Of a DNA stretch of 64,000 nucleotides, positions 18,982 to 37,467 are shown one piece after another; position 1 is the stretch's first letter, and each line of letters opens with the position of its first letter. Position numbers and translations under genes: made by a program. The stretch comes from Ignavibacteria bacterium (GTDB taxonomy: Bacteria > Bacteroidota > Ignavibacteria > Ignavibacteriales > Ignavibacteriaceae), in assembly GCA_021286645.1 (NCBI GenBank), contig JAJTBZ010000064.1, positions 62,001 to 126,000 on the forward strand, read 5' to 3'. A model generated the notes under the pieces. The model was not told the DNA's origin, did not search any database, and worked only from the letters and a program-made list of their open reading frames with translations.

Positions 18982-19040
18982 AATAAATGCTTTTAGTGCA
19001 TAAATAAAATCATTCATTCATTCATTAGTTGAGGAAACCA

Positions 19041-19409: not shown

Positions 19410-19421
19410 CAGGAGGGTACA

Positions 19422-19895: not shown

Positions 19896-19905
19896 GGAAC
19901 AGACT

Positions 19906-21114
19906 ATGGAAATCGGAATTGAGAAAACCGCTCGCCGGGGCTTTGTTCTGTTCACTGATTATGCTCAAGGCTCAGCGATTAAAAAAGCAATTGAAGTTGG
20001 CCGGGAAAATGTACTTTTCGAAGTACGTGATTCAAAACTAAAAGGCCGTGGTGGTGCAGGCTTCCCTACTTCAACCAAGTGGATGATTACTGCTGCTGCT
20101 ACTGCTGAAAAAAAATATATTGTTTGTAATGCCGATGAAGGTGAACCCGGTACATTTAAAGACCGCGTCCTTTTATTGGAATACCCGAGTATTGTTTTTG
20201 ACGGCATGGTTATTGCCGGATATACTATTGGTGCGGAATATGGCATTCTGTACCTTAGGGCTGAATACACGTATATGTACACCGCCCTGCTGGATTATCT
20301 GGATAACATGCGCAAAAATAATCTCTTGGGGAAAGATATCCAGGGTAAAGCAGGCTTTAACTTTGATATCGAAATCCGCCTGGGATCGGGTGCCTATGTA
20401 TGCGGCGAAGAAACTGCACTTATTGAATCGCTCGAAGGACAGCGCGGAGAACCCCGTAACAGGCCACCCTACCCGGTTAATACCGGCTATATGGGCTTCC
20501 CCACGGTAGTGAACAATGTTGAAACTCTTGCCTCCATTCCGCATATTGTATTAAAAGGCGGTGAATGGTTTAGGAACCACGGAACAGATAAATCTACCGG
20601 ATCAAAACTGTTTTCAGTTTCTGGTGATTGTGACCGCCCGGGTGTGTATGAATTACCCTGGGGTATATCCATTCGTGAACTTCTGGATATTGTTGGCGCC
20701 CAAAATACAAAAGCGGTACAGGTCGGTGGTGCTTCGGGAGTTTGTATCCCGAAGAGCCAGTTCCACAGGAAATTAGCGTATGAAGATGCGGCTACCGGTG
20801 GTTCGATCATGGTATTTAATGAATCCCGTGATATGCTGAAAGTACTTCATAATTTTATGGATTTCTTTGTTGAAGAATCCTGCGGGCAATGTACTCCTTG
20901 CCGTGTCGGTAACGAACGACTTCTGGAAGGTGTGGAGAAATTGATTAATGGTAATTTTACCTTTTCATTCATCCGCAACCTGAAGGAACTTGGTTATACG
21001 ATGCAGGCAGCATCGAAGTGCGGGTTAGGCCAATCGAGCCCTAACGCGTTTTTATCGATATTAGAAAATTTCAGCGATGAGATTTACCAGTCTAAAGGAG
21101 GAAGCCATGTCTAA
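19906..21114 (+). CDS. hydB: NAD-linked [FeFe] hydrogenase flavoprotein subunit, NuoF-like (short form)
   Basis: A 402-residue NuoF-type subunit binding FMN, NAD(H) and one [4Fe-4S] cluster. The flavin loop is G-R-G-G-A-G-F-P-T, the nucleotide-binding stretch is G-S-G-A-Y-V-C-G-E-E-T-A-L, an SLBB segment follows, and cluster cysteines are in S-C-G-Q-C-T-P-C-R plus a later Cys. It has neither the N-terminal [2Fe-2S] thioredoxin-like domain nor the C-terminal two-[4Fe-4S] ferredoxin domain present in HydB of electron-bifurcating enzymes (about 500-630 residues). It ends straight after the core. The stop overlaps the hydA start by 8 bases. This architecture favours an NADH-dependent, ferredoxin-independent hydrogenase. 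Confidence 0.92.
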   Translation: MEIGIEKTARRGFVLFTDYAQGSAIKKAIEVGRENVLFEVRDSKLKGRGGAGFPTSTKWMITAAATAEKKYIVCNADEGEPGTFKDRVLLLEYPSIVFDGMVIAGYTIGAEYGILYLRAEYTYMYTALLDYLDNMRKNNLLGKDIQGKAGFNFDIEIRLGSGAYVCGEETALIESLEGQRGEPRNRPPYPVNTGYMGFPTVVNNVETLASIPHIVLKGGEWFRNHGTDKSTGSKLFSVSGDCDRPGVYELPWGISIRELLDIVGAQNTKAVQVGGASGVCIPKSQFHRKLAYEDAATGGSIMVFNESRDMLKVLHNFMDFFVEESCGQCTPCRVGNERLLEGVEKLINGNFTFSFIRNLKELGYTMQAASKCGLGQSSPNAFLSILENFSDEIYQSKGGSHV

Positions 21115-22984
21115 AGCAAAAGAAAATCGTGCACCGGTAAGTCAACAGTCGCATAAAATTGAAAAGCCGGCTGATCCGAATTCAATCGGTGCAAATATTA
21201 CCATAGAAATAAACGAGAAAAAAGTCAGCGTTCCGTTAGGGACGACTATATTGGATGCATGCAGGCAAAATCAGGTACATATACCAACTCTATGCCATCA
21301 TGAAGACTTGTGCATAGCAGGCGTATGCCGTGTATGCGCTGTTGAGGTTGAAGGAATGCGTACATTACAGGCAGCCTGCGCGTTTCCTATTACCGCACAA
21401 ATGAAAATTAAAACATCAACCGAAAGAGTTCGTAAAGCCAGACGACATATTATTGATCTTCTGCTGAGTGAACATCACGGCGAGTGCTACGCGTGCGTGC
21501 GTAACCGTAATTGCGAGTTGCGTAACTTAGCTGCCGAATATGGTGTTGACGGGTTTACATTCGGGCATCGTGAGAAAAAGATGCATGAAATCGACCGTTC
21601 GTCATATTCAGTATTGCGCGATATGGATAAATGCGTGCTCTGCCGTCGTTGTGTACGTACATGTATCGATTTACAGGAAGTTGGCGTACTCGAAGCCATA
21701 GGCCGTGGAAATCAAACAAGAATTTCTACGTTTATGGATAAACCGCTTTCCGAGGTAATTTGTATTAATTGCGGTCAGTGTATAAACCGCTGCCCAACCG
21801 GCGCGTTGTTTACCAATGATCCCTCTGACGATATCTGGCGCGCGATTGATGACCCTACCAAGCATGTTGTTATACAAACCGCACCTTCACCACGCGCGGC
21901 AATATGCGAAGAATTTGGTATGGAAGCCGGTACATCATTAACACAGGAACTGAATACCGCCCTCCGCCGTATTGGTTTCGATAAGGTTTTTGATACGAAC
22001 TATACAGCAGATCTTACAATTATGGAAGAAGGTACTGAACTTCTCCTCCGATTGAAAAAAGCTCTTGTTGACAAAGATCCTGATGTGAAATTACCACAAT
22101 TTACATCATGTTCTCCGGGATGGGTGAAGTTTATTGAACACTTCTACCCTGATTGTCTGGATTATCTTTCAACGGCAAAATCACCACAGCAGATGTTTGG
22201 GGCACTTACAAAAACATTCTATGCCCAGGAGTACAATATTGATCCGAAAGATATTGTAACAGTTGCGGTTATGCCTTGCTCTGCAAAGAAATTCGAGTGT
22301 AACCGGCCGGAAATGACTTCATCGGGTTACAAAGACGTTGATTACGGTTTAACTACACGTGAACTGGCTACAATGATTAAGGAAGCAGGTATATTCCTGC
22401 CCGAAATGCCCAAGACAGGTTTTGATGATCCGTTTGGTGAAGCTTCTGGCGCGGGATTAATATTCGGCGCAACGGGCGGTGTTATGGAAGCAGCCTTGCG
22501 TACCGCTTATGAAATTGTTACCGGGCGCGAAGTGCCTTTTGAAAACCTAAACATTACACCATGTCGTGGTTTTGAGGGTATCAAGCAAGCATCAGTAAAA
22601 TTAGAAGGATGTGTTCCTGATTGGAGTTTCCTGGAAGGCGCAGAATTAAAATTTGTTGTTGCTCATGGAACGGCGAACGCACGTGCAGTTATGGAAATGT
22701 TTAAACGCGGTGAGCTGAACGATGTTCAGTTTATTGAGATCATGGGATGCCCTGGCGGGTGTATCGGCGGCGGCGGTCAACCAATACCTACATCACCGGA
22801 AATACGGCAAAAACGCGCTGAAGCTATTTATGCAGAAGATGAGTCATTGCCATTACGGAAATCGCATGAAAATCCACACGTGAAGTATTTGTATGAAAAA
22901 TTCCTGCCTGAAGGTCCTTGCGGACACAAATCGCATGAATTGTTACATACACACTATACAAAGCGTGGAAGTTTTATTGTTTAA
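21107..22984 (+). CDS. hydA: [FeFe] hydrogenase catalytic subunit of a trimeric NAD-linked enzyme
   Basis: A 625-residue group-A hydrogenase. In order: a [2Fe-2S] domain (Cys63/74/77/91); a His-Cys3 [4Fe-4S] motif (His123, Cys127/130/136); a two-cluster ferredoxin domain (Cys176/179/182/186 and 219/222/225/229); the H-cluster domain with L1 T-S-C-S-P-G-W at 333-339, L2 M-P-C-S-A-K-K-F-E at 389-397 and L3 with Cys548 and Cys552; and a small-subunit-like tail. It interconverts protons and H2 using electrons from NADH via HydB/HydC. L1 reads C-S where the textbook motif has C-C. ATG 21107 is preceded by AAAGGAGG. No maturases HydE, HydF or HydG are in the window. Confidence 0.95.
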   Translation: MSKAKENRAPVSQQSHKIEKPADPNSIGANITIEINEKKVSVPLGTTILDACRQNQVHIPTLCHHEDLCIAGVCRVCAVEVEGMRTLQAACAFPITAQMKIKTSTERVRKARRHIIDLLLSEHHGECYACVRNRNCELRNLAAEYGVDGFTFGHREKKMHEIDRSSYSVLRDMDKCVLCRRCVRTCIDLQEVGVLEAIGRGNQTRISTFMDKPLSEVICINCGQCINRCPTGALFTNDPSDDIWRAIDDPTKHVVIQTAPSPRAAICEEFGMEAGTSLTQELNTALRRIGFDKVFDTNYTADLTIMEEGTELLLRLKKALVDKDPDVKLPQFTSCSPGWVKFIEHFYPDCLDYLSTAKSPQQMFGALTKTFYAQEYNIDPKDIVTVAVMPCSAKKFECNRPEMTSSGYKDVDYGLTTRELATMIKEAGIFLPEMPKTGFDDPFGEASGAGLIFGATGGVMEAALRTAYEIVTGREVPFENLNITPCRGFEGIKQASVKLEGCVPDWSFLEGAELKFVVAHGTANARAVMEMFKRGELNDVQFIEIMGCPGGCIGGGGQPIPTSPEIRQKRAEAIYAEDESLPLRKSHENPHVKYLYEKFLPEGPCGHKSHELLHTHYTKRGSFIV

Positions 22985-23189: not shown

Positions 23190-24416
23190 TTACTTCATTA
23201 AAATCAGTTTTTTCATTGCAACAAAGTTGCCAGCTTCAAGTTTATAGTAATAAACACCGGATGAGAATTTTGATCCGTCAAATGTGTATTCATGTTTGCC
23301 GGCCGCCAGCGATGAGTTGATTAATACAGCAACTTCTTTACCTAAACAGTTGAAAACAGTTAGCTTGGCATTGCCAACAGCAGGGGTTGTGAAAGAAATC
23401 TTTGTAACTGGGTTGAACGGATTCGGAAAATTCTGATTCAATGAGTAAGAAACGGGTTGTTTAACAGTTACTTCCAGAGTATTTGAATAATTGGTGGTCC
23501 CGTCGTTATCAACTTGTTTCAGGCGATAGTACATCGTTCCCTGAACAGTTTTGCTATCAACAAAGCTGTAATCATGTGCAGTTGCCGAATATCCATTTCC
23601 TGCTACGAAGCCAAGATCTGCCCAGTTTACCTGGTCAGTTGACCGCAGTACATGGAAACCGGCGTTATTGGTTTCAGAAGCGGTATTCCAGTTTAATTTT
23701 ACTGCATCGCGGATTAGCGAGTAATTGAATGCTGCTAATTCGACAGGTAGTGGACTGGTAGAACGAATGCTCAGGTTGTTAAAAAATAAGTTATCACGGC
23801 CATCACTGCCCGAACTTCCTATATACACATGGAAACCGGTTACTCGACCAGTTGTAGTGATTACTCCTGAAGTGCGTACATCTGAACCGCGGGTAAGTTT
23901 TGCCATAATTGCAGTTGAAGAAAGTGCCATAACTTCGATTTTGAAAATTGAAGTAGCAGAATAAGACCAACCAAGATTCACATCTGAACCACTTGCTCCT
24001 TCACGTACATAATAGTTATCGGACTGGCAGCGGAAATGATAAACTACCGTACTGCCAACTTTAACGTCAATCCCCTTATTTCCATTTCTCCATTGAATTG
24101 CCAAGTCGATTCTGAATGTATTGTTATCGGCCAAAGATGATGAAAAAGAGCGGGAAGCATTAGCAAACATATCGCCCTGATTACCATACATACCAAAATC
24201 TTTAGATGTTGCATCAAGGTCACCGAAGCCGCTTGCAGCAGCATCACCGAGGAAAAAACCAGCATAACCGGTGCTGCCGGTTGTGGTTAATGACCAGGCA
24301 CCAAATCCGGTACCGGCATTCGAAGCATCTGTCCATGAATTATAGTTATTTGCAACGTCGCTCTGTGCGAAAGCATAAACACAGAATAGCATAGAAAGCA
24401 ATATGAGTTTTTTCAT
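23190..24416 (-). CDS. Secreted protein with T9SS type A C-terminal sorting domain
   Basis: 408 residues. A signal peptide (residues 1-18, ending A-F-A-Q) is followed by a region of unknown fold, about 25-210, probably a beta-sandwich. A fibronectin-like segment begins L-P-V-E-L-A-A-F and leads to a C-terminal sorting domain starting N-F-P-N-P-F-N-P and ending M-K-K-L-I-L-M-K. That tail directs export through the type IX secretion system and attachment outside the cell. I chose ATG 24416, with GGAG six bases upstream, over an in-frame GTG at 24422. I recognise no enzymatic motif in the N-terminal part. Confidence 0.85.
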   Translation of the reverse strand: MKKLILLSMLFCVYAFAQSDVANNYNSWTDASNAGTGFGAWSLTTTGSTGYAGFFLGDAAASGFGDLDATSKDFGMYGNQGDMFANASRSFSSSLADNNTFRIDLAIQWRNGNKGIDVKVGSTVVYHFRCQSDNYYVREGASGSDVNLGWSYSATSIFKIEVMALSSTAIMAKLTRGSDVRTSGVITTTGRVTGFHVYIGSSGSDGRDNLFFNNLSIRSTSPLPVELAAFNYSLIRDAVKLNWNTASETNNAGFHVLRSTDQVNWADLGFVAGNGYSATAHDYSFVDSKTVQGTMYYRLKQVDNDGTTNYSNTLEVTVKQPVSYSLNQNFPNPFNPVTKISFTTPAVGNAKLTVFNCLGKEVAVLINSSLAAGKHEYTFDGSKFSSGVYYYKLEAGNFVAMKKLILMK

Positions 24417-24627
24417 GCCCACTCCAATAAATAATTTTAGTTTAAACTATTTTCTCAACCAATTGCTAAAATACACAGGGGGATGGGTTTAATCTAATTA
24501 TAAGAATTTTTATAATGGTGAAAGGGGCGAAAAATGAAGTAAAATGTGCTGTTTGTAACAGGGATCCTTAATAATTTGCGGAAAAATGGGGGATGGCTGA
24601 AAAAGATTTGCTTTTTGTTCAGGAATA

Positions 24628-24660: not shown

Positions 24661-26847
24661 TTACTTCATCGAAAGAGCAATTCGTTTTCGTTCAATATCT
24701 ATCTGGAGGATTGTTACATCAATAATATCGCCCACTTTAAGCACATCAAGCGGGTTTTTTACAAATTTATTGGCAAGCTGGGAAATATGAATCAGCCCGT
24801 CCTGCTTAACGCCAATATCCACGAAAGCCCCGAAATCAACAATATTGCGAACAGTACCTTTTAACCGCATTCCTTCGCGTAAATCTTCCATTTTTAAAAC
24901 GTCGGATCGAAGTATCGGCGGTGGAACATCTTCGCGCGGATCTCTGCCCGGCTTTTTCAGGTTCTCGATTATATCATTTAATGTCGGTTCGCCTAACCCC
25001 ACTTCCTGTGCTATCTTTTTAACACCTTTCTTTTCCATGAAGAAATCGATTAATCCAATCGATTCTCTGAATTGGTTAGGCTGAAAGTTAAACATTTTTA
25101 GCAGTGTTTCAGTTGCTACATACGATTCCGGGTGGATGAATGTATTATCCAGGGGGTTATCGCCATTGGCAATTTTCAGGAATCCCGCTGCCTGTTCAAA
25201 AGTTTTAGCACCAATACCGGCAACTTCCAGAATTTGCTGACGATTAGTGAACCGTCCATTCTTTTCACGGTGTTTTACAATGCTGCCGGCAAGTTTTTTA
25301 TTAAGGCCGGATACATAAGCGAGTAATGATTCAGAAGCCGTATTTACATCTACACCAACATAGTTTACGCAACTTACAACAACGTCATCGAGTTTCTTTG
25401 CAAGAAGTTTTTGATCTACATCGTGCTGGTAAAGGCCCACACCAATGGATTTGGGGTCTATTTTAACTAATTCCGCAAGTGGATCCAGTAATCTTCGGGC
25501 AATTGAAATATTTCCTCTCTGGCTTGCTTCCAGTTCCGGGAACTCTTTTTTTGCAACTTCAGAGGCTGAGTACACTGACGCGCCTGCTTCGCTAACTATT
25601 ATATATTTAGTGCTTAATTTCTTTTCTTTCAGCAAATCAGCAACTAATTGTTCGGTTTCACGACTCGCGGTACCGTTACCAATTGAAACTACTTCAACTC
25701 CATATTTCTTGATAAAATGGTGAATAATTTCTTTGGATTCCGTTTCTCTGTTCTTCGGTGGGTGTGGGTAAATTGTAGCGCCCTCGAGGTATTTACCTGT
25801 TTTATCAATTACCGCAACTTTACAGCCCGAAACATATCCCGGATCGATTCCCATAATCATTTTATCGCTTAAAGGCGACTGTAGCAACAATTGCCGTAAA
25901 TTGCTGGCGAATATTTCTATCGCGTGCTGATCGGCTATTTCTGTAAGCGTGTTGCGAACTTCTTTTTCTACGGAAGGAAAAATCAGGCGTTTATAGCTAT
26001 CTTCAAAAACTTCATCAAATACGGGCTGCAGTGGTGTTGTTTTATTTCCGAGGAAAATATTATTCATGGCAGCATACATCATAAGCTGGTCATGTTCCAG
26101 TTCAATTTTTAAGAATTTTTCAGCTTCTCCACGGTTCAGCGCTAATATCTGATACGGTTTTAGTTTTGTGATATCAATCTGAAAATCAAAGTAAATTCTG
26201 TAAACGTCTTTTTTATCTTTATCTTTCAGTTTTTCATTGGTTTCATCCTTCAATGATACGTCTTCACGTTTCACAGAGCGAACAACCGATTCACGCTGGA
26301 GATTTTCACGAACAGTTTTCCGAACATCGGCATTATCACTTACCATTTCTGCCAGAATATCTTTTGCACCCTGTAAAGCTTCGATAGCACTGCCAACACC
26401 AAGTTCATCATTAATGAATTCGGCTGCTTTGGCCATAATATCCCCATCAAAATCAAGATTTTCAAGCAGGAATAAGGCCAACGGTTCAAGACCTTTTGCT
26501 TTTGCAACCGTACCACGCGTTTTTCGCTTGGGTTTATAGGGCAGGTACAAATCTTCCAGTTCCTGCAGGCGGGTGCAGCCTTCAATCTTTTGCTGCAATT
26601 CGTCGGTTAATTTACCTTGTTCCGCAATGCTCTTTAAAATTGTTTCACGGCGCTCGCCAAGTAAAGTAAGGTAGTTATTTCTTTCTTCAATTTCGCGCAA
26701 TTGATCCTCTTCAAGGCCGCCGGTTCGTTCCTTACGGTAACGAACGATAAACGGGATAGTAGAGCCTTCCGCGAGCATTGTAAGAACGGAATCAACTTGT
26801 TCCTTGCGTATCTTAAGTTCATCTGCAATTAGGGATGGAATTTGCAT
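24661..26847 (-). CDS. tex: Tex-family RNA-binding transcription accessory protein
   Basis: 728 residues, the normal Tex length. The N-terminal helical region contains T-I-P-F-I-V-R-Y-R-K-E-R-T-G-G and Y-L-P-Y-K-P-K-R-K-T-R, followed by a YqgF-like RNase H fold (I-M-G-I-D-P-G-Y-V-S-G). Tandem helix-hairpin-helix motifs and a C-terminal S1 RNA-binding domain (G-T-V-R-N-I-V-D-F-G-A-F-V-D-I-G) complete it. Tex binds nucleic acid and affects transcription and stress tolerance in several bacteria; the exact role is not settled. It is transcribed alone, divergently from the TPR gene at 27055. Confidence 0.95.
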   Translation of the reverse strand: MQIPSLIADELKIRKEQVDSVLTMLAEGSTIPFIVRYRKERTGGLEEDQLREIEERNNYLTLLGERRETILKSIAEQGKLTDELQQKIEGCTRLQELEDLYLPYKPKRKTRGTVAKAKGLEPLALFLLENLDFDGDIMAKAAEFINDELGVGSAIEALQGAKDILAEMVSDNADVRKTVRENLQRESVVRSVKREDVSLKDETNEKLKDKDKKDVYRIYFDFQIDITKLKPYQILALNRGEAEKFLKIELEHDQLMMYAAMNNIFLGNKTTPLQPVFDEVFEDSYKRLIFPSVEKEVRNTLTEIADQHAIEIFASNLRQLLLQSPLSDKMIMGIDPGYVSGCKVAVIDKTGKYLEGATIYPHPPKNRETESKEIIHHFIKKYGVEVVSIGNGTASRETEQLVADLLKEKKLSTKYIIVSEAGASVYSASEVAKKEFPELEASQRGNISIARRLLDPLAELVKIDPKSIGVGLYQHDVDQKLLAKKLDDVVVSCVNYVGVDVNTASESLLAYVSGLNKKLAGSIVKHREKNGRFTNRQQILEVAGIGAKTFEQAAGFLKIANGDNPLDNTFIHPESYVATETLLKMFNFQPNQFRESIGLIDFFMEKKGVKKIAQEVGLGEPTLNDIIENLKKPGRDPREDVPPPILRSDVLKMEDLREGMRLKGTVRNIVDFGAFVDIGVKQDGLIHISQLANKFVKNPLDVLKVGDIIDVTILQIDIERKRIALSMK

Positions 26848-27054: not shown

Positions 27055-30027
27055 ATGAAATTACGATCAATTTTTATCTGCATGCTCTTCCTTTCAGGTA
27101 TTACATTTGCCCAGCAAAAAAACAGCCTGTACGAGGAAGCACTCTACGATTATGCCCGTGAAGCATATAGCGCGGCCTACCAGAAGTTTAAGGATTTTAC
27201 CGCAACCCTTGAACCTGCCAACCCTTTAAATGCTTCGGCGCAGTATTACACTGCTGAATGCCTTTATAAGTTGGGCGATTATCCCGGTGCCGTTTTCGAG
27301 TTCGAAAAGGAAATAACATATCACCAACTTTCAAACTTCAGGGAAGAATCGCTTTATAAACTGGGACTGATTTATTATAATCTTAAACAGTATCAAAAAA
27401 GCCGGGAGCGACTTTCAACTCTTATTAGCACATATCCCGAAAACGAACATTATGGTTCGGCTTTATACTGGATCGGTGAAGCCTATACGGTAGAACAAAA
27501 GTACGATGAAGCAATTGAATTTTTTAACCAGGCAATACAGCAAAAACGCAACAATAGTTTTCTTGATTACAGTGTTTACACGCTTGCAACTATTTACGAG
27601 AAAAAGAAGGAGTATAAAAAGGCAGTAGAATTTTATGATATGCTTCTGAGCTATTATAAAAATAGCACGCTGGCTCCAACTGCCCAAATACGAATCGGGT
27701 ATTGCTACTACAAATTGAAAGAATACGAAAATTCTATTATTGAGCTTTCCAGTCCTACAGTAAAAAGTTTAAGCAGCGAGAAAAAGGGAGAAGCACTTTA
27801 CATGCTCGGTAATTCTTATTTCAGAACTGCCGAATATGATAAGGCGCAAACAACCTTTCTGGAATTGATAGGAAAATATCCGGATAATGAATATATACGA
27901 GAAATTAAGTATTCTCTTGCCTGGTGTTATTTTCAACAGAAGCAATATCAGGATGCATATAAAACATTTCAGGGAATTAGTGAAGGAAGTGATACCTTAG
28001 CCCGCCTCTCTATTTACTGGAAAGCGGAATGCCAACGGTATTTAGGCAATGATAATGAGGCCTTAAAAGGGTATCAGGAGTATATAAAAAAATTCCCCCT
28101 ATCACCCCTGATTCAGGGCGTTCAGTACCAGGTAGGAGTTATATATTACAATAATAAAATGTTTGATAAATCGGTTAACTTTTTAAATAGTGCCACTAAT
28201 TCAACCGATCCGGAAATAAAGGCACGCTCATTAATTCTTTTAGGTGAGCTGGAGTTAAACCGGATGAAATATGCGGCTGGTTACCGCTATTTTACCAATG
28301 CTCTTTCACTGAAAGGGATTCAGGATAACCTGCGGAACAGGGGCCTTTTAGGCTTAGGGGTTGTGCAGTACGCCATGAAAAAATATACCGATGCGCTTCA
28401 GGCTTTTGATGAACTGGATACTAAAGCGCCAAATTTCGAAAGTGATAAGGTGCAATTCTATTCAGCTGAATGTCAATTCCAACTCGATAATTTTCAGGAT
28501 GCCCTTAGTCATTATAAAAAGATTAGTTTCGATCAGCCTGAATTGGGCGCCGCCACGGCTTATGGCACTGCCTATTGTTATTATAATCTTAAGGATTTTG
28601 ATAATGCCAGTTTCGCGTTCGATGATTTTTGCCGCAAATTTCCGCGGGATTCACGGGTTGGCGACGCGAAGATACGTTTGGCGGATACTTACCTGGCGGT
28701 TAAGCGCTATGCCGATGCTGCGAGAGTATACGAAGAAAGCTTGAAATTAAAGACAATTCAAACGAATAAAGATTATCTTAATTATCAATATGCTCTTACG
28801 TTGTTTAAGAGTGGGAAGACTCAACAGGCGGTAACTGAATTTACCAAAATGCTCAGTACATATCCAAAATCGCCATATACGGAAAATTCGCTCTATATGG
28901 TAGGATGGATTCGTTTTCAGCAGGGCAAACTGCAAGAGGCAGTCAATTCATATCTCTATCTGCTTTCGTATGCACCGCACTCCAAATTATTACCGTTGCT
29001 CTATTATTCGGTTGGCGACGCTTATTATAACATGGGCGCGTATGATTCGGCCATTACTTATTATGGACGTGTTGCCTATAATTTTAAGAATTCATCATAT
29101 ATCTTTGATGCTGTTAACGGATTACAGCTTAGTTATATAGCCAAAGGGGATCTTGATAAAGCCTCGGCGATTATTGATGAATTCGCGAATGAGAACAAAA
29201 AATCAAATTTTGCTGATCAGCTCTATTACAAAAAAGGTGAAATGTATTTTAACCAGGGTAATTACGAGCAGGCAATTGAGAGCTACAAAGAGTTCGTTCA
29301 GCGTTTCCCGGCCAGCAAATCTGTACCCAAGGCGCTTTTGGGTATCGGGAAAGCATCGCAACTCTTAGGTGATAAAACACAGGCTGCAAATTATTTTAGA
29401 AAAGTATTTGACGCGTATCCGGGCAGCGATGAAGGCGCTTCTGCCGTAGTAGAGGCAGGGAATATTTATACCGCGGCCGGTAACCCGGATGAAGCGCTTC
29501 GGCTGTATGATAGAGCAATTGATAAAGTTAAAAAAGAGACAGTGCGACCCGAAATTATGTATTATAAGGGCGTAACACTTGAAGCCAAAGGCGATTCACG
29601 TGGCGCGTATGACGTGTTTGAAGAAATTGTTATGTATTATGACGGGACATTGTTTGCTGATAAGTCTCGACTTGAATTAGGGCAAATTGAGTTGAAATCC
29701 AAAAGGTATCCTAATGCTGCCAAGTTCCTCCAGGCACTCAGTACTAAACGGACAGACGATCTGGGAGCCGCAGCTCAATTTTGGTTAGGAACCATGTATA
29801 TGGAACAAAATAAATTGAGTGATGCGGTAACAGCATTTGTAAGAATTCTGAATTTATTTGGCACTTATGAAGAATGGGTTGTAAAAGCTAACCTGCGCTT
29901 AGCCGGATGCTATGAACAGTTGAAAGATGTGAAGAAAGCAAAGGAAATGTATAAAGTCGTGATATCGAAGCATAAAGATGACGAATTTGGCAAAGAAGCA
30001 GCACAAAAACTGAAGAGGCTTAAATGA
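27055..30027 (+). CDS. Large secreted tetratricopeptide-repeat protein
   Basis: 990 residues. A signal peptide ends at F-A-Q, and almost the entire remainder is a solenoid of TPR units. Repeats such as A-L-Y-W-I-G-E-A-Y and A-A-x-Y-Y-x-A-E-C recur with 34-40 residue spacing, resembling BamD/CpoB-type periplasmic scaffolds. It should be a periplasmic or outer-membrane-associated protein-protein interaction platform. Its stop overlaps the start of the barrel gene (ATGA at 30024), so the two are translationally coupled and probably form a complex. Downstream genes in the same run are an HU-SPOR protein and a TonB-family protein. Confidence 0.88.
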   Translation: MKLRSIFICMLFLSGITFAQQKNSLYEEALYDYAREAYSAAYQKFKDFTATLEPANPLNASAQYYTAECLYKLGDYPGAVFEFEKEITYHQLSNFREESLYKLGLIYYNLKQYQKSRERLSTLISTYPENEHYGSALYWIGEAYTVEQKYDEAIEFFNQAIQQKRNNSFLDYSVYTLATIYEKKKEYKKAVEFYDMLLSYYKNSTLAPTAQIRIGYCYYKLKEYENSIIELSSPTVKSLSSEKKGEALYMLGNSYFRTAEYDKAQTTFLELIGKYPDNEYIREIKYSLAWCYFQQKQYQDAYKTFQGISEGSDTLARLSIYWKAECQRYLGNDNEALKGYQEYIKKFPLSPLIQGVQYQVGVIYYNNKMFDKSVNFLNSATNSTDPEIKARSLILLGELELNRMKYAAGYRYFTNALSLKGIQDNLRNRGLLGLGVVQYAMKKYTDALQAFDELDTKAPNFESDKVQFYSAECQFQLDNFQDALSHYKKISFDQPELGAATAYGTAYCYYNLKDFDNASFAFDDFCRKFPRDSRVGDAKIRLADTYLAVKRYADAARVYEESLKLKTIQTNKDYLNYQYALTLFKSGKTQQAVTEFTKMLSTYPKSPYTENSLYMVGWIRFQQGKLQEAVNSYLYLLSYAPHSKLLPLLYYSVGDAYYNMGAYDSAITYYGRVAYNFKNSSYIFDAVNGLQLSYIAKGDLDKASAIIDEFANENKKSNFADQLYYKKGEMYFNQGNYEQAIESYKEFVQRFPASKSVPKALLGIGKASQLLGDKTQAANYFRKVFDAYPGSDEGASAVVEAGNIYTAAGNPDEALRLYDRAIDKVKKETVRPEIMYYKGVTLEAKGDSRGAYDVFEEIVMYYDGTLFADKSRLELGQIELKSKRYPNAAKFLQALSTKRTDDLGAAAQFWLGTMYMEQNKLSDAVTAFVRILNLFGTYEEWVVKANLRLAGCYEQLKDVKKAKEMYKVVISKHKDDEFGKEAAQKLKRLK

Positions 30028-31610
30028 AAAAAGTATTCAGTATCCTCGTACTAATGGCAGTGTTTGCTTCATTGCTTCGGGCTCAGGAATCATCGGGGCA
30101 AAGCGTTGAGCTTCCCAGTTTCGTTATTACCGGCGAAGAAAAGTATGAATTACCCAAAGCTGCAAAGGCCGAAGCACCCCTTTTACCCATAGTTTCGGAA
30201 GAATTTCTGAAACCTGTATTTTCACCCGAATTTCTTGAAACCTCGCTGCAAAGCGACCCCATTCGAAAAGAGATGCGGTTACAGGATAGCATTATTAATT
30301 ACAGCTCAAAATTGGAAGCCTCGATGGGGAATTTGAAAACTCCCGAGTTTAATTTCTCAACCATATACCCATACAACAGTATGACGTTGGTAGGTAACCT
30401 GAAGGGATTCAACCAGCGTGCCTACGAAACGGGTTCTGGTAAATACGGGTTTCATCCTGAAGCAGGCGTACGATTAAAAGTAGTTGAAGAAGGGGCATTC
30501 TTCAATGATAACGATATTCAGGTTCTGGCCGGTTACAATTTTCTGGGATACAAACTTTGGGCTCTTACACCGATGATTGAACGCAAGACCGGAGAAGCTT
30601 ATATCAAAGGCAGTCTTTCGAGTAGTAAAAGTAACTTTTGGCAATATTCTATTGCAGGGCAGGCGAGCTCATTATCCATGACCGATGAAAAGGGTAAAGA
30701 GACTGAACTGATTTTGGACCTCAACGCGGGCTTTTCCGGGAAAGTTATGCAATTTACTCCCGGTATTCAGTATATTGGGTCGGTAACAAAAAATGAAAAT
30801 TTAAGTAAGCACCTTGGTTTCTTTAGAGTGAATGCACCGTTACAATTAAATATTTCCGATGTTGTAAATATTGCTGCGGGTGGTGAATTTTTTCATTGTG
30901 ATACAATAAATTCGTTTCTTCCAAAAGCCAGTATCGCAGTTAAGCTGAAGAAAGGGTTAATTCTGTATGGTGAATATAACCCGGTTTATGAAAAAATGGG
31001 GTTAAAGCGCGCACTGAATGAAAATAGCTTTTTTAATGTAAACCAATTTGTCCCTGTATATTATCCCTTGAAGAACCGGATTACCATTGGGATGAATCTG
31101 GAATATGAGCGCGAATTCGATATGATGCTTTCGTTTGTTTCATTTACATCAGACAGATATCCATATTTTCAGCTGGATAGCAGCAGGAATTACACGGTGC
31201 AAACTTCTGATATTAAAGGATTTCAAACAAAAATTGAGACAAGAATTTATCCTGGCAGGCTGGGCTACTTTTATGCCTCGTTAACGTTCCAGTCAATTCA
31301 AAACGATTCCGACAAATATTTGCCGTTTGTTCCTTCTCTTCAGGGTACTTTGAGTTATGGATATACTATTATGAAAGGATTAAATGCAAAAGCAGGAGTT
31401 ATTTTTGAAAATGGCAGGTATATTGACGCATTAAATAATATTTCGCTCAATACGTATGTTTCAACATTTTTAGAACTTGGTTATTCTTTCTCGCATGACT
31501 TTTTCGTAAATTTCAAGATTAATAACCTGATAAATAAAGAAAACTATTTCTGGAGATACTATAAAGAGCCACCATTGAATGCCACAGCCGGCATTACTTT
31601 ACAATGGTAG
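30024..31610 (+). CDS. Outer-membrane beta-barrel protein, TonB-receptor-like
   Basis: 528 residues with a signal peptide (ending L-R-A-Q). Next comes S-F-V-I-T-G-E, which resembles the start of TonB-dependent receptor plugs but is followed by no recognisable plug. The rest alternates aromatic and polar residues as in a transmembrane beta-barrel and ends in a typical final strand (A-T-A-G-I-T-L-Q-W). It lies between the TPR protein, whose stop codon it overlaps, and the HU-SPOR and TonB-family genes. The order suggests an outer-membrane component energised or anchored by its neighbours. The transported substrate, if any, cannot be told. Confidence 0.72.
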   Translation: MKKVFSILVLMAVFASLLRAQESSGQSVELPSFVITGEEKYELPKAAKAEAPLLPIVSEEFLKPVFSPEFLETSLQSDPIRKEMRLQDSIINYSSKLEASMGNLKTPEFNFSTIYPYNSMTLVGNLKGFNQRAYETGSGKYGFHPEAGVRLKVVEEGAFFNDNDIQVLAGYNFLGYKLWALTPMIERKTGEAYIKGSLSSSKSNFWQYSIAGQASSLSMTDEKGKETELILDLNAGFSGKVMQFTPGIQYIGSVTKNENLSKHLGFFRVNAPLQLNISDVVNIAAGGEFFHCDTINSFLPKASIAVKLKKGLILYGEYNPVYEKMGLKRALNENSFFNVNQFVPVYYPLKNRITIGMNLEYEREFDMMLSFVSFTSDRYPYFQLDSSRNYTVQTSDIKGFQTKIETRIYPGRLGYFYASLTFQSIQNDSDKYLPFVPSLQGTLSYGYTIMKGLNAKAGVIFENGRYIDALNNISLNTYVSTFLELGYSFSHDFFVNFKINNLINKENYFWRYYKEPPLNATAGITLQW

Positions 31611-31628
31611 GCGAATAAGATTGTAATA

Positions 31629-33431
31629 ATGATAACACGTACAGAATTAATACAGACATTAGCGATACGCGCTGAGATGCCTCAAACTGAGGCGGGGCGC
31701 TTTATGGAAATTTTTCTCCATAAATTGGTAGATATTTTAGCCCCTGGCGATGTGTTTTCACTCGAAGCCTTCGGGGTATTTGAAGTTGTACGCCCTGATG
31801 ATAGTGAAGGGCTTATGGGGCAGGATGATGTGCTGATTCTTTACCGAACTGAAAAGGCATTTGGGAATGGTGAAGAGCTTGTCTTCCGGGTTTCAGTGGC
31901 GAAGAGTGAAACTTCCAATCCATTGGATCTGTATTTTAGTCTGGGTATTGCAAAACCGCTGATTCCTTTGAAAGGACAAAAATTTGTGGCCGATTCATTG
32001 CCCGCTTCTCCGCTTGAATTACGGAAACTGGCAGAAATGAAGGCTGATTCTATTATTGCCAAGGGTTCTATTAGTCGCGGAACTTCCGTTACTGATTATC
32101 AAAGCATACGGAATATTCATGCTGAGCAGGGAGCTGCTTCCCAAGGGGCAAAGAAGAAACATCTTACCTGGGAATTTGGCGATGACTGGAAAAAGGAGTA
32201 TGAGGCAGCTACAATACTTTCGGGTACTGATACCGGGATAGTAGACGAGTTCCCGCTGGAAGCAATGCATCCTGATAACGAAATGAATTGGGATTTTGGC
32301 GGTGACGAAGAAGCCCCTCCTCTAACGCCTCACGAGCGAACCGCAGAGAATAAAGCAATTGATACAGCTAAAACACCCGATCCGGTGCTGCCGTTTTCAC
32401 AGGTGAAATCTTCTACCAGGGAATTGGAGATCGATTTTTCTGATTTTGAAGATGACAGCGAGGCTTCGGCTGAGGATTTCGATACGATATTCAAAAAATC
32501 ACTTGCTGCTAATGTTCTTTCAACTGATGCATTGCCGCCCGAAGAACCCTATAAGCAGGTGCGCTCAACCCGTGAATTACCTGCATTCCACATTCCCGAG
32601 GAACCTGCTGAGGAAGAAGAAATTGATAGAGCGGGGCAGGAAGATTTCTCCAAACTTGTTATTGATTTGAAAGACGGACTGCGTTCTACTTCGATATCGG
32701 AAAATGAAACCTTTCAGGCCAGGGGAATCAGGGATACAATTGATTTTCATCCACCCAAGAAAGAGTCAAGCGCTCTGAAATGGTACGTGTTAGCGTTCAT
32801 TTTATTTACTGTTTCCGGGTCACTTGTATATGTAAAAATGTACGGTACTCCTGAATGGGCCAGAAAATATTGGCAGAATAATATTGAACAAGGCTTTACA
32901 AAACCAATTCCTGTTGTAGTTGAACGTGATTATTCCTTTCCGGTCACATTCCCATACCCGGCACGCACGGTTACACCGATTGCCAGTAAACCTGTGGAGC
33001 AAGCGGAACCGGTGACTGAAACAAAGAAAGCAGAAGAGCAAAAAGTTGAAACTGCGCCGATTAAGCAGGAGTCGGTGAAGCCGCAGCCGGTGAAGCCGCA
33101 GGAAAAACCCGTTGGTAAAACGGAAAAAGTAATAGAAAAACCAAAACTGGTTGAAGCTAAAAAGGAACCCGTAAAGCCGGAAACAAAACCGGCCGCTCAG
33201 GTGCAAAAAAATATTTTTAAAGAGGCCGATGGTTACCAGGTCCAGGTAATGTCGCTCAATCGCGAAGATCAGGCAGAAGCAGAAGCTGCACGGCTTCGTG
33301 CAAAAGGTTATAAGGTAACGGTCGTTTCAGCAAATGTTCCCGGTAAGGGGCTCCATTATCGTGTCAGGGTCGGAAGCTTTGCCACTGTTGAGGAAGCATC
33401 GAAAGCTGCGGCTAAGCTCGGCGGCAAATAA
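31629..33431 (+). CDS. HU/IHF-like domain, transmembrane helix and SPOR domain fusion
   Basis: 600 residues. Residues 1-95 look like an HU/IHF-type domain (L-I-Q-T-L-A-I-R-A-E-M, then L-E-A-F-G-V-F-E-V). A long acidic low-complexity linker (about 120-375) precedes one membrane helix at about 380-402. The periplasmic part has a Lys/Pro/Glu-rich stretch (about 450-530) and a C-terminal SPOR domain (Y-Q-V-Q-V-M-S-L ... R-V-R-V-G-S-F). SPOR domains bind denuded septal peptidoglycan. HU-SPOR fusions of the CCDC81-like type have been described in Bacteroidetes and suggested to link chromosome and envelope. It is transcribed with the TPR, barrel and TonB-family genes. Confidence 0.82.
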   Translation: MITRTELIQTLAIRAEMPQTEAGRFMEIFLHKLVDILAPGDVFSLEAFGVFEVVRPDDSEGLMGQDDVLILYRTEKAFGNGEELVFRVSVAKSETSNPLDLYFSLGIAKPLIPLKGQKFVADSLPASPLELRKLAEMKADSIIAKGSISRGTSVTDYQSIRNIHAEQGAASQGAKKKHLTWEFGDDWKKEYEAATILSGTDTGIVDEFPLEAMHPDNEMNWDFGGDEEAPPLTPHERTAENKAIDTAKTPDPVLPFSQVKSSTRELEIDFSDFEDDSEASAEDFDTIFKKSLAANVLSTDALPPEEPYKQVRSTRELPAFHIPEEPAEEEEIDRAGQEDFSKLVIDLKDGLRSTSISENETFQARGIRDTIDFHPPKKESSALKWYVLAFILFTVSGSLVYVKMYGTPEWARKYWQNNIEQGFTKPIPVVVERDYSFPVTFPYPARTVTPIASKPVEQAEPVTETKKAEEQKVETAPIKQESVKPQPVKPQEKPVGKTEKVIEKPKLVEAKKEPVKPETKPAAQVQKNIFKEADGYQVQVMSLNREDQAEAEAARLRAKGYKVTVVSANVPGKGLHYRVRVGSFATVEEASKAAAKLGGK

Positions 33432-33442
33432 AGGTTAGTAGT

Positions 33443-34114
33443 ATGAAACAACGTCGTTTATATAATTATATTATTTCAGCAATATTTCATGTATTACTTT
33501 TTTCTGCATTCTTTTACCTGCCGGTAGCCGCTACCCCCAGTGAAGAAAATGCCGTTGAGGTAGGAATTGGGTTCGGTTTTGGCAATGGCACCGGCGGTGG
33601 TGGAATGGGCATGGATCTTACTGAACCGGGAGGGAATGAGTCTGCAGCTGAAGAAAAAACCAATGAAGATGTGAAACCCGCGAAAGAAATTACCCAATCG
33701 GCAATGGCAAAATCAGACGATGAAGTGAAAATTTCCGGTAAAGGGAAAAAAGCGGATTCGAAAAAAGAAGCACTTGGAGGCAGTGGATCGGGTACAGGTA
33801 GCGGAATAGGAAACGGCTCAGGCAGTGGTTTTGGTTACGACATTGAATGGGGTGGCGGTGGAAGACGAAGAATATATAATTATTCTTTGCCAGAGTATCC
33901 CGCGGGGGTTAATAAAGAATTGGATATACGAATCAGGTTTACCATTTTACCCGATGGCACCGTAGGCAGAGTTTTCCTGCTTACAAAAGGTGATACGCGC
34001 TTAGAAAACTCTGCTCTCAATTCATTGCGTCAGTGGCGGTTTGAGCCTTTGCGCTCGCAACAGCCGCAGGTAGAACAGACTGCTGTTATTGTTTTCCCTT
34101 ATCGGCTGCAGTAG
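33443..34114 (+). CDS. TonB-family energy-transducer-like protein
   Basis: 223 residues. One N-terminal membrane helix (about 8-28) is followed by a Gly-rich and Lys/Glu-rich periplasmic linker (about 40-150) and a C-terminal TonB domain (Y-P-A-G-V-N-K-E-L-D-I-R-I-R-F-T-I-L-P-D-G, later N-S-L-R-Q-W-R-F-E-P-L). TonB domains contact outer-membrane partners and transmit proton-motive-force energy. No exbB or exbD gene is adjacent, so it either borrows these or acts structurally. It starts 11 bases after the HU-SPOR gene and ends convergently with, and 29 bases inside, the gene on the opposite strand. Confidence 0.85.
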   Translation: MKQRRLYNYIISAIFHVLLFSAFFYLPVAATPSEENAVEVGIGFGFGNGTGGGGMGMDLTEPGGNESAAEEKTNEDVKPAKEITQSAMAKSDDEVKISGKGKKADSKKEALGGSGSGTGSGIGNGSGSGFGYDIEWGGGGRRRIYNYSLPEYPAGVNKELDIRIRFTILPDGTVGRVFLLTKGDTRLENSALNSLRQWRFEPLRSQQPQVEQTAVIVFPYRLQ

Positions 34115-34388
34115 AGAACGTAGGTTTGTAATAAACAAAGTAAAATGCTATTTCACAAAGGGTGAGTAGTGTTAGCGAAAAGCTGTCCCGGTCAAAGTAT
34201 ATCCCAAAACCTTCCGGCTGCATAAGGGTTTTCGATATGATAGTTGATATTGACCAGCCGACTGAAAAAAGCAATCCTATTAATGCGGCATCTTGTATTC
34301 CCGCTGAAAGCCCCTCGGTTTGCCATTTCTTTGAAAAAACAATTAACAAAAAAACACAATGAGCAAATAATAAAAATGCATTAACCAT
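34086..34388 (-). CDS. Small integral membrane protein of unknown function
   Basis: 100 residues with three hydrophobic segments (about 5-20, 30-50 and 75-95), consistent with three membrane helices. I place the start at ATG 34388, one base after the stop codon of the gene upstream, giving tight coupling to it. The 3' end overlaps the convergent TonB-family gene by 29 bases. I recognise no family. It probably works with the membrane protein encoded immediately upstream. Confidence 0.6.
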   Translation of the reverse strand: MVNAFLLFAHCVFLLIVFSKKWQTEGLSAGIQDAALIGLLFSVGWSISTIISKTLMQPEGFGIYFDRDSFSLTLLTLCEIAFYFVYYKPTFSTAADKGKQ

Positions 34389-34389
34389 A

Positions 34390-34905
34390 TTAGTGTATAT
34401 CCTTATTCTCAAGTAATTTTTTATTGTTGTAATTTGCCCCGAGTATGCCGCCTACAATGCCAAAAATTGCGCATGTGAATGCATTGCCAAGCCCTATACA
34501 TACCAGATACATGCCGGAGAAGCCGTATTGCTGAATATCGGCAGCACATTGCCGGAGGATGCCTGTAGCTTCTTTAACAGACACAGCAGGAAACTGCATT
34601 TGGGCAAGAATCTTTTCCATTTCGGGGAGCTGGCGAACAAATTCATTTGAATGAAGAATAAAAGATATCAGTCCTTCGAACAGAGTAGCGAATAATGCCG
34701 CGTAAAGACCGGTAATTATTCCTTTTATCGCGCCCTTAGGCAGACGGACATGATGCGGGCCGTTCAGGCGCTGCTCTAAATATTGGCTTATCCAGGCTGC
34801 AAAAGGCACAACAAAGCAACAGGCAATACTTTGGAACCCGGGTATGGAATAGAAAACTCCTGCCGCGAAACCACAAACCAGGGCAGGTGAAATTTTTGAG
34901 CTCAT
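34390..34905 (-). CDS. Integral membrane protein of unknown function
   Basis: 171 residues with about four hydrophobic stretches (about 6-40, 62-85 and 138-160) and a central hydrophilic loop of about 45 residues. The pattern, with Gly-rich helices such as G-I-V-G-G-I-L-G-A, resembles small DUF-type membrane proteins common in Bacteroidota, but I cannot name one. It is followed one base later by another small membrane protein. No clear promoter or ribosome site is seen. Confidence 0.6.
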   Translation of the reverse strand: MSSKISPALVCGFAAGVFYSIPGFQSIACCFVVPFAAWISQYLEQRLNGPHHVRLPKGAIKGIITGLYAALFATLFEGLISFILHSNEFVRQLPEMEKILAQMQFPAVSVKEATGILRQCAADIQQYGFSGMYLVCIGLGNAFTCAIFGIVGGILGANYNNKKLLENKDIH

Positions 34906-35091
34906 AAAAATAAAACTTATAACGAGTAAATAAAATTTCGCCTACAACAGAAATTGAGAAGCTTATACAGCATTGCAATTCCATAATCGGCGATTTTGAA
35001 ACTGTAAAGATACGATAAGCCGATAAATTACTAAAGCGACTGTACATTTTATGCTATAGCGACGCAGAAGCATTGTCTATATAGTCGCTTA

Positions 35092-35934
35092 CTAATTCCC
35101 GAGACTAAATTTAGTAATTGACTTTGAAGATAATAAATACAGAGAATTTCCTTTCAGACAGAGCTCCCGGGGATTGGAAAAATCATCGGTTAAGCGAAAG
35201 AGTTCCTGCCAATTGCCAGTAGTACCTGAATATACATTGATTGTTTTAGCAGAAAGCGTGTAAATATTATCGTTATCAGAAGCGATATCGATTGTTCCAT
35301 CGGGTACAGGTATTGTTCGAATTGCATTCCCGAAATGATCGAAAAGAGAAATACCTTTAGCATTCAGTACGGCAATATTTTCACCAAACATCCGGATTTT
35401 AGTCGGCAACTGTAAAGCTGCAGCGCCGGAATTAATTCCCCCGAATGTTAACGAATATCCGCCGGAAGGAGAAAATACAACGACCTGACTATTCTCAGAG
35501 TCCAATATAAAATACTCGCCCAGGATGCTTCTGACTGCGCCAATGGGGTACCGGAAACTGTAATTGAGGTTTTCTGCTGAGAGAGAAATTATACCGGCAA
35601 GAATAAGATTTCGATCGAAAAGCTGTATTCTATGATTGTTTTTATCAGTTACTAAAATTTGCAGTGTCGCCGATGTAACGGAAACCGGGCTGTCAAATAC
35701 CCCGGTATCCCACCCGAACCCCCCGGCTTCTTTTTGTTTTACTCCGGTTTCATCTATACGAATGATATTGGAGCTTACGGAATCAATGATATAAAACTCA
35801 TTCAAATCATTTGTGCAAAAAGAAACTGCCGACTGAAAATCGCCGAATGAGCCTGCTACATGCAATGATTGAGCATTTGAACATGTTGCAAATACCAGAA
35901 TGATCAGAGTATATAAAAATTTTCTTTTTTGCAC
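35092..35934 (-). CDS. Secreted NHL-type beta-propeller protein
   Basis: 280 residues. A signal peptide (ending S-N-A-Q) is followed by about six repeats of a propeller type, each with a segment like F-Y-I-I-D-S or I-L-V-T-D-K-N-N-H-R-I-Q-L-F-D, the hallmark of NHL repeats. I prefer GTG 35934, which has AAAGGAAA just upstream and gives a normal signal peptide. An ATG at 35982 would add a 16-residue tail before the signal. It is likely periplasmic and involved in binding protein or sugar. It is transcribed divergently from the TPR lipoprotein at 36062. Confidence 0.7.
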   Translation of the reverse strand: MQKRKFLYTLIILVFATCSNAQSLHVAGSFGDFQSAVSFCTNDLNEFYIIDSVSSNIIRIDETGVKQKEAGGFGWDTGVFDSPVSVTSATLQILVTDKNNHRIQLFDRNLILAGIISLSAENLNYSFRYPIGAVRSILGEYFILDSENSQVVVFSPSGGYSLTFGGINSGAAALQLPTKIRMFGENIAVLNAKGISLFDHFGNAIRTIPVPDGTIDIASDNDNIYTLSAKTINVYSGTTGNWQELFRLTDDFSNPRELCLKGNSLYLLSSKSITKFSLGN

Positions 35935-36061
35935 AGTCAGATTTCCTTTAATAAATAGTTCCGGGAAAATGTCTATTGGCACATTATGAATTTCCGTAAA
36001 TTACCAATTCAAAAATAGAAATCTTTTCAACGTTATAAAGAGAATAATTTCAGGATCGTGT

Positions 36062-36562
36062 ATGAAATACATCAGAACAATTCTGGTGCTTATTGCACTT
36101 GTTTTAATTGGTTGTTCAAAAAGAAGCGAAAAAAACTATCTGGACTCTGCTTCTGAAAAAATGAGAAATAATGATATTTCCGGTTGTATAGTGGAATACC
36201 AGAAACTTATTCAAGACTATCCTTCAAGTCTTAATTCATTGGCTGCCCTTGATTCATTAATATACATATATCAGAACGGATTGGAAAAATCGCTTTCACG
36301 CCAGGCTGCTCAGCAAAAGGTTGTAGAGTGCTACTCAACAATCAGTAAGAACTTTCCCGAATCCGATCAGGGGAAAGTAGCAATGTTTATGGTAGGTTTT
36401 ATACAGGCCAATGAATTGCAGCAATATGACGCGGCTAAGAAAAGCTACCAGGCATTTTTGGATAAAAACCCTAACCACCCCATGGCCCCTGCTGCACGTA
36501 CAGAGTTGGAAAATATAGGTAAATCGGCAGAAGATATATTGAAATCTGCCAAAGGTATTTAG
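36062..36562 (+). CDS. TPR lipoprotein, BamD-like
   Basis: 166 residues. The signal peptide ends in the lipobox L-I-G-C (Cys19), and the mature protein consists of three to four TPR-like helical hairpins (G-K-V-A-M-F-M-V-G-F-I, Y-D-A-A-K-K-S-Y-Q-A-F-L). It resembles the N-terminal half of BamD/ComL-type outer-membrane lipoproteins but is shorter than BamD (about 240). It is immediately followed by DUF58, whose GTG start overlaps its stop by one base. Confidence 0.75.
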   Translation: MKYIRTILVLIALVLIGCSKRSEKNYLDSASEKMRNNDISGCIVEYQKLIQDYPSSLNSLAALDSLIYIYQNGLEKSLSRQAAQQKVVECYSTISKNFPESDQGKVAMFMVGFIQANELQQYDAAKKSYQAFLDKNPNHPMAPAARTELENIGKSAEDILKSAKGI

Positions 36563-37467
36563 TGGGCGAAGTAAATGATCATCGGCGTTATCTTGACCCG
36601 GCTGTTGCTTCGCGCTTAAGCTCGGTCGAATTAAGATCCCGGCTTATTGTAGAAGGATTTCTACTTGGTTTGCATAGAAGCCCTTTTCATGGATTTAGTA
36701 TAGAATTCAGTCAACACCGGCCCTATATGCAAGGGGATGCTTTAAAAGATATTGACTGGAAAGTTTATGGCAAGACCGATAAATACTATGTAAAGCAGTA
36801 TGAAGAAGAAACGAACATGCGCTGTTCTTTTTTTCTTGACTGCAGCGCAAGTATGGGATTCAAATACAGCAGTACTACTACTAAATATGAATATGGGGCA
36901 ATGCTAGCCAGCGCTCTGAGCTATTTATGCATTCATCAGAAGGATGCAGCGGGAATAACCTTATACGCGGATACTATAAAAAAGGCTCTTACTCCAAGGG
37001 CTTCAGGCATATATTTGAACGAAATTTTTAAGGCAATTGCAGAAACAACGGTTTCCGATAAAACAGCCACCGGTAAATGTCTTGATAAGGCGGTTGATAA
37101 GGTAAATAAAAGAGGGTTGGCAATTATTATCTCCGATTTCCTCGATACACCGGATTCAATTCTGCCGGCATTAAAACATTTTCGATTTAAGAAAAATGAA
37201 GTTATTGTATTTCAGATATTAGATCCGGTTGAACAATCTTTCGCTTTGGGAAAGGATGCCGTGTTTGTTGATATGGAGACAGGTGAAGAAATGACGAGTC
37301 AGCCATATCAGGTTCAGAAATCGTATCAGGAATTATTCTCATCATTTCAGAAACGTCTTAAAGATGAATGTATAAAGATGGGAATAGATTATAATGTTGT
37401 TTTAACAACAGAGCCTTTTGACAGGGCCTTGTTCGGGTATTTACAAAAGCGGGCAAGAATGCAGTAA
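36562..37467 (+). CDS. DUF58 / von Willebrand-like domain protein
   Basis: 301 residues of the DUF58 family. The signature R-P-Y-M-Q-G-D-A-L-K-D-I-D-W is at about 54-67. A vWA-like domain with metal-site motif D-C-S-A-S-M is at about 93-98, and I-I-S-D-F-L-D lies further on. DUF58 proteins are partners of MoxR ATPases in envelope-stress and metal-insertion pathways. The only MoxR gene in the window is at 12914. The start is a GTG overlapping the upstream stop codon; no ATG gives a better frame. A strong bidirectional terminator follows. Confidence 0.88.
   Translation: MGEVNDHRRYLDPAVASRLSSVELRSRLIVEGFLLGLHRSPFHGFSIEFSQHRPYMQGDALKDIDWKVYGKTDKYYVKQYEEETNMRCSFFLDCSASMGFKYSSTTTKYEYGAMLASALSYLCIHQKDAAGITLYADTIKKALTPRASGIYLNEIFKAIAETTVSDKTATGKCLDKAVDKVNKRGLAIIISDFLDTPDSILPALKHFRFKKNEVIVFQILDPVEQSFALGKDAVFVDMETGEEMTSQPYQVQKSYQELFSSFQKRLKDECIKMGIDYNVVLTTEPFDRALFGYLQKRARMQ

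Follow-up and report, generated by a model that had tools for sequence, protein, structure and literature searches.

A widespread Bacteroidota gene set with a plug-less outer-membrane barrel, and its motor-less copy in an Ignavibacteria genome, as a candidate trans-envelope machine

The gene cluster described here is a concrete candidate for the means by which Bacteroidota keep hold of their outer membrane and constrict it in the absence of Tol-Pal. The cluster is located in a 64,000-nucleotide stretch of an Ignavibacteria bacterium (contig JAJTBZ010000064.1 of assembly GCA_021286645.1; the window, to whose positions all coordinates refer) and consists of four intact open reading frames (ORFs), all on the + strand, for a giant tetratricopeptide repeat (TPR) protein (27055-30027, 990 amino acids (aa)), an outer-membrane barrel (30024-31610, 528 aa), a protein with an HU-like domain, a transmembrane (TM) segment and a SPOR domain (31629-33431, 600 aa), and a TonB/TolA-like protein (33443-34114, 223 aa). 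The first two genes overlap by the four bases ATGA (30024-30027), and the following gaps are 18 and 11 bases long. A sequence-only reading of the window had named these four gene types and distances. The distances agree exactly with the ORF calls, and the gene types with the Pfam/NCBIfam calls (TPR, HU-like plus SPOR, TonB_C) and, for the barrel, with a structure model. The same reading had proposed a trans-envelope machine with Tol-like logic, linking division sites to the outer membrane or to the chromosome. According to the analysis presented here, the cluster may well encode a tether or force machine that is driven by the proton-motive force (PMF), and that resembles both Tol-Pal and Ton while being a member of neither.

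For the comparison with relatives, loci were chosen by the barrel alone, among the stronger barrel matches, and their genes were called by a simple ORF script (stop-to-stop frames); group names such as Flavobacteriia-type or Cytophagales-type were judged from gene content. In a single-sequence search the barrel was present in 63 of 149 genomes of the class. The 40 class loci that were read all contain a TPR gene on the same strand at most 2.5 kb upstream of the barrel and a SPOR gene downstream of it, 38 contain a TonB gene (one of the two misses is explained by a contig end), and 24 contain ExbB and ExbD genes. Given these numbers for TPR, SPOR and TonB, the four-gene association is far from chance. 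A barrel profile matched 359 of 395 genomes of the phylum, part of these matches being ordinary TonB-dependent transporters (TBDTs). Matches of 630-710 aa in loci L171, L174, L191 and L201 were set aside for this reason, those in L191 and L201 showing plug-type N-termini. Another 20 loci were read, the majority of them from other classes; 16 have the TPR gene, 12 the SPOR gene, 13 ExbB/D and 12 TonB, and the order in the other-class loci is TPR, barrel, (HU), (HU-)SPOR, ExbB, ExbD, TonB, often followed by folC. Carriers of the set include Ignavibacteriaceae, Melioribacteraceae, a Melioribacter roseus metagenome-assembled genome, Balneolaceae and Roseivirga. Many genomes of the class and a broad range of the phylum carry the gene set, and the conservation outside close relatives on which the sequence-only reading had staked its proposal was found in other classes of the phylum. 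A literature search, with subscription papers and preprints left out, yielded no publication describing the set. An Omnitrophota locus (L178) combines TPR, ExbB, ExbD and TonB genes but has no barrel gene, and may represent a force-transducer set of related type.

A Pfam search of the window barrel resulted in no match, and in a profile search against the PDB all matches with E up to 0.01 were TonB-dependent receptors. The AlphaFold2 model (40 sequences, pLDDT 85.9) has 22 strands as counted from DSSP elements, is mostly disordered at residues 20-89, and superposes on FhuA residues 159-714, which is the barrel part only (Z 24.0, rmsd 2.4, 415 residues aligned). The plug domain (PF07715) was detected in none of the 40 barrels and the TBDT barrel family was matched by five of them. 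By sequence and predicted fold, the protein is a plug-less barrel of TBDT descent. Its classification as an ordinary receptor, suggested by a 'TonB-siderophor' NCBIfam match, was rejected because of the missing plug. The best-conserved eight residues of the 40-sequence alignment are LPDFVITG (ELPDFVITG in a longer form), directly after the signal peptide, with a mean majority frequency of 0.83 compared to 0.35 over all columns; the window barrel reads LPSFVITG at this place (residues 30-37, 30111-30134). At the corresponding position, ordinary receptors with a plug encoded in the same genome have ELPPIVVTD, NDIVITG and KEIVVTG. Due to its top conservation and its likeness to these ordinary TonB boxes, the motif was read as a TonB box, which would be bound by TonB.

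The main rival explanation, which is unlikely, is dedicated TonB-energised transport, in which the barrel serves as transporter or exporter for one substrate, TonB acts on a gating partner, and the TPR and SPOR proteins merely scaffold. The TBDT-like sequence and fold of the barrel, its putative TonB box, and the clustering of motor and TonB genes with it are in line with transport. However, none of the 40 barrels has a plug to move, no recurrent substrate-binding, SusD-like or inner-membrane transporter gene was noted in the neighbourhoods viewed, and the SPOR gene is constant in the class. In addition, the TonB box is kept unchanged in barrels whose identity has dropped to 13-27%, unlike what is expected of a conserved substrate site.

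The last gene of the cluster encodes a predicted force transducer of the TonB/TolA type with a TM helix, a glycine-rich linker and a TonB C-terminal domain (residues 162-219, 33926-34099; PF03544 5.9e-7, TIGR01352 3.1e-7, over cut-off). The TM helix contains SAIFH (33476-33490), an instance of S-x3-H, the motif by which TolA and TonB contact their motors. The conserved histidine of this motif has been described (PMC12204202). In relatives, a TolQ/ExbB-like and a TolR/ExbD-like gene are located between the SPOR and TonB genes. Within the window's family, 11 of 13 genomes have a TolQ/ExbB-like gene close to the barrel, and the loci read there show it in this position along with an ExbD gene. In the window cluster such TolQ/TolR-type genes are absent, the corresponding junction being 33432-33442 (+ strand). 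The relatives' motor genes reach 107 bits with the TolQ model (cut-off 221), 71 bits with the ExbB model (below cut-off) and, for the TolR/ExbD-like gene, 51 bits with the TolR model (cut-off 127); judged by these scores, the cluster ExbB is closer to TolQ than to ExbB while exceeding neither cut-off. All 13 ExbD sequences examined share the TM aspartate.

The absence of the motor from the window cluster could be traced by a maximum-likelihood tree, in which the cluster ExbBs from the class and from distant loci form one clade with moderate support (86/76). ExbB is encoded only twice in the window genome, in two ExbBD sets on contigs C44 and C66, and both genes are placed outside this clade, so that the missing Tol genes represent a lineage-specific loss. 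In the window lineage, the cluster has lost its motor pair by deletion and is now a motor-less local version of the gene set found across the Bacteroidota. The statement of the sequence-only reading that none of the Tol genes is present is therefore true of the window but not in general. Among class clusters, S-x3-H was found in TonB of 23 of the 24 bearing ExbB and ExbD and in 0 of the 14 without them (Fisher 1.6e-9, relatedness uncorrected; regex matches in L057 and L061 were left out as lying outside the TM helix by inspection). The window TonB keeps SAIFH despite the missing motor genes, which fits a recent loss and the use of another ExbBD, and the protein presumably borrows that of C44 or C66.

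A second rival explanation takes this loss as decay, leaving the TonB-like protein at most a passive tether. It would account for the lack of an ExbB of the cluster clade in the window genome, and the persistence of a clade of three families (f8, f15, f20) without clustered motor and S-x3-H points the same way; still, decay is improbable in view of the four intact ORFs, the retained SAIFH and the two other ExbBD sets in the genome. Class loci with TPR, barrel, SPOR and TonB genes but no clustered ExbBD, in which the TonB TM segment lacks S-x3-H, were recorded at L051, L053, L054, L057, L060-L063, L066-L068 and L070, and the class clade without ExbBD and S-x3-H is possibly a motor-less tether version of the system.

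The two remaining proteins would provide the scaffold and the peptidoglycan link. The TPR protein (27055-30027) is predicted to be periplasmic, with a Sec signal peptide and no lipobox; a lipobox regex matches 2 of 41 orthologues, the window's protein not being among them. TPR_6 was found in 11 stretches, and the AlphaFold2 model (mean pLDDT 91) is one continuous helical-repeat solenoid of ~54 helices; the protein comprises ~26 helical hairpins. High NCBIfam scores to YbgF/CpoB or BamD were rejected as generic TPR matches, and an assignment to PorW/SprE of the type IX secretion system (NF052312) was rejected at 148.8 bits, under the cut-off of 250. The third protein (31629-33431) comprises an HU-like domain at residues 3-55 (31635-31793; PF00216 2.1e-5), a long linker predicted to be cytoplasmic, a predicted TM segment at 386-404, and a periplasmic SPOR domain at 534-597 (33228-33419; PF05036 3.9e-15), which belongs to a peptidoglycan-binding family. 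The evidence for a role at the division site is this SPOR domain only.

The HU half varies among the loci. It is fused to SPOR in the window's order, Balneola-type and similar loci have a short HU gene followed by an HU-SPOR gene, and in Cytophagales-type loci (L115, L121) the slot is filled by the CCDC81-type HU pair PF18174 and PF18175 plus SPOR, a pair for which the window protein gave no match. A small separate HU gene between barrel and SPOR was seen in L056, L058, L050, L108, L110, L122, L180, L181, L189 and L198, and family f12 has a separate HU gene with the RxGxNPxTG arm, followed by a gene for a SPOR protein with an HU domain of its own. According to the alignment, this DNA-binding arm motif is lost from the HU half in the window and its order, and DNA binding by the window domain is therefore doubtful. 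This bears on a third rival explanation, the fastening of the machine to the nucleoid by the HU-like domain. The domain itself is real (PF00216), and the arm is kept where the HU gene is separate or full (L056, L058, L050); the loss of the arm in the window's order, and the failure to detect HU in several families in which SPOR and TonB are retained, make a nucleoid link quite improbable. The chromosome link proposed from sequence alone is weak for the window protein, although the separate HU gene of family f12 keeps the arm.

Whether the machine could take the place of Tol-Pal was addressed by the distribution of TolB and Pal. Neither protein was found over its curated cut-off in any of 61 class genomes, the controls E. 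coli and Caulobacter passing for both, and OmpA-domain proteins below the Pal cut-off are common in these genomes. In the phylum survey (395 genomes, E at most 1e-55), TolB was detected in 81 genomes, all of family f33, and not in the window's own genome. Family f33 represents the green sulfur bacteria, with the FMO protein in six of six tested. The full-length barrel is absent in 20 f33 genomes examined, and no f33 member occurs in the list of the phylum's best barrel matches (E at most 2.4e-34). Barrel-profile matches from this family (~570-900 aa) were read as ordinary TBDTs and set aside; in the 20 genomes examined, the profile aligns solely with the C-terminal portion of frames of ordinary receptor type. 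A 2025 survey could not identify tol-pal loci in Bacteroidetes, proposed PorE as a Tol-Pal substitute there and expected further systems to be found (PMC12204202).

The favoured mechanism can be outlined as follows. An inner-membrane motor of the TolQR/ExbBD type would pull the TonB-like protein, whose C-terminal domain would grip the N-terminal TonB box of the plug-less barrel, the latter serving as outer-membrane anchor or handle. The giant TPR protein would act as a periplasmic scaffold binding the long disordered N-terminus of the barrel, and the SPOR protein would tie the assembly to denuded septal peptidoglycan. Its likely job would be to draw in or stabilise the outer membrane of bacteria that have no TolB-Pal, chiefly at division. 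In the window lineage, the TonB-like protein would most likely be driven by the ExbBD of contig C44 or C66. If this is true, TonB would work here on an anchor in the outer membrane and not on a gate. A function equivalent to that of Tol-Pal is the leading interpretation, with about as much speaking for it as leaving it in doubt. The broader claim is more tentative: this could be an undescribed PMF-driven system with a plug-less TonB-box barrel as its handle, ancestral to Bacteroidota and present in at least some related lineages outside, which replaces Tol-Pal in the whole phylum except in the green sulfur bacteria. The original proposal of a trans-envelope machine is supported by the phylum-wide set and the TolQR-like motor of the relatives, a support that does not extend to its division and chromosome parts.

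Several points weigh against this mechanism. The literature search found no experiment on any member, and PorE is a rival Tol-Pal substitute. The TolB counts use sequence cut-offs, and the mutual exclusion of TolB and barrel, although striking, amounts to one evolutionary event in a single lineage. The correlations, including that of S-x3-H with the motor, are phylogenetically non-independent, and several motor-bearing Bacteroidia have Asn in place of the S-x3-H histidine. The clade of f8, f15 and f20 keeps the barrel and the TonB C-terminus without clustered motor or S-x3-H, so cluster and motor do not always go together. Barrel, ExbB, ExbD and TonB genes also occur together in two records without a Bacteroidota label, L166 (Candidatus Hatepunaea) and L170 (bin522), the latter with TPR as well; at both of these loci, which apparently lie beyond the phylum, the SPOR gene is absent. 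Three Flavobacteriia-type loci (L114, L116, L120) contain a TPR-barrel pair without motor or SPOR genes. In all three of these loci, the TPR gene has as its divergent neighbour an FtsE-like gene (FtsE being the best model, at 237-242 bits, below the cut-off of 265), a weak hint at division.

Compared to known systems, the cluster shares with Tol-Pal (TolQRA-TolB-Pal-CpoB) the TolQ/TolR-like motor seen in relatives, a single-TM transducer with S-x3-H, a TPR protein, a peptidoglycan link and clustered genes. It differs in having neither TolB nor Pal, in its outer-membrane partner (a barrel with a putative TonB box), in the use of SPOR as peptidoglycan link, and in motor genes that score below the TolQ and TolR cut-offs in relatives. 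With Ton/TBDT systems it has in common the TonB C-terminal domain, the TonB-box-like motif, the TBDT barrel fold and the ExbBD-like motor in relatives, but its barrel is plug-less and fixed in one cluster, the TPR and SPOR partner genes are constant, and in relatives it has its own motor alongside. The HU-CCDC81-SPOR proteins of Bacteroidetes resemble the window protein in the HU-like N-terminus, the TM segment and SPOR, whereas the latter has a single degenerate HU half (PF00216) and no CCDC81 pair. The Agl-Glt gliding machine of Myxococcus also combines a TolQR-type motor with TonB-type, TPR and barrel parts, and has two TolR-like genes, many more parts and different barrels. A surface-motion machine of this type is very improbable here, as the alike parts and a match of the TonB-type protein to the AgmX/PglI domain model (2.2e-4, below cut-off) are set against one TolR-like gene per cluster instead of two in the loci shown, no other Glt-type gene seen, and a spread over the phylum that appears to be regardless of motility. 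PorE is likewise a proposed link between outer membrane and peptidoglycan in a phylum without tol-pal (PMC12204202), but of unrelated architecture, being a lipoprotein in which TPR, propeller, carboxypeptidase-like and OmpA domains are fused, with no motor or transducer.

Regarding the surroundings of the cluster, scans for promoters and terminators gave nothing usable, and no TAnnTTTG -7 element was found. A Tex gene (24661-26847) is located divergently upstream of the TPR gene, and a convergent gene for a conserved small membrane protein (34086-34388) overlaps the end of the TonB gene. Together with a second small membrane-protein gene and an NHL-repeat gene (orfX, orfY and NHL, 34086-35982, - strand), it is found beside the cluster in almost every locus of the same family and order. 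Further upstream, genes at 19029-22984 (+) resemble an electron-bifurcating [FeFe]-hydrogenase cluster (21077-22984 by eye), and the product of 23190-24422 (-) has, by eye, a C-terminal type IX secretion-like sorting domain. Downstream, at 36062-37467 (+), a gene for a small BamD-like TPR lipoprotein is directly followed by a DUF58/vWA (Bat-type) gene.

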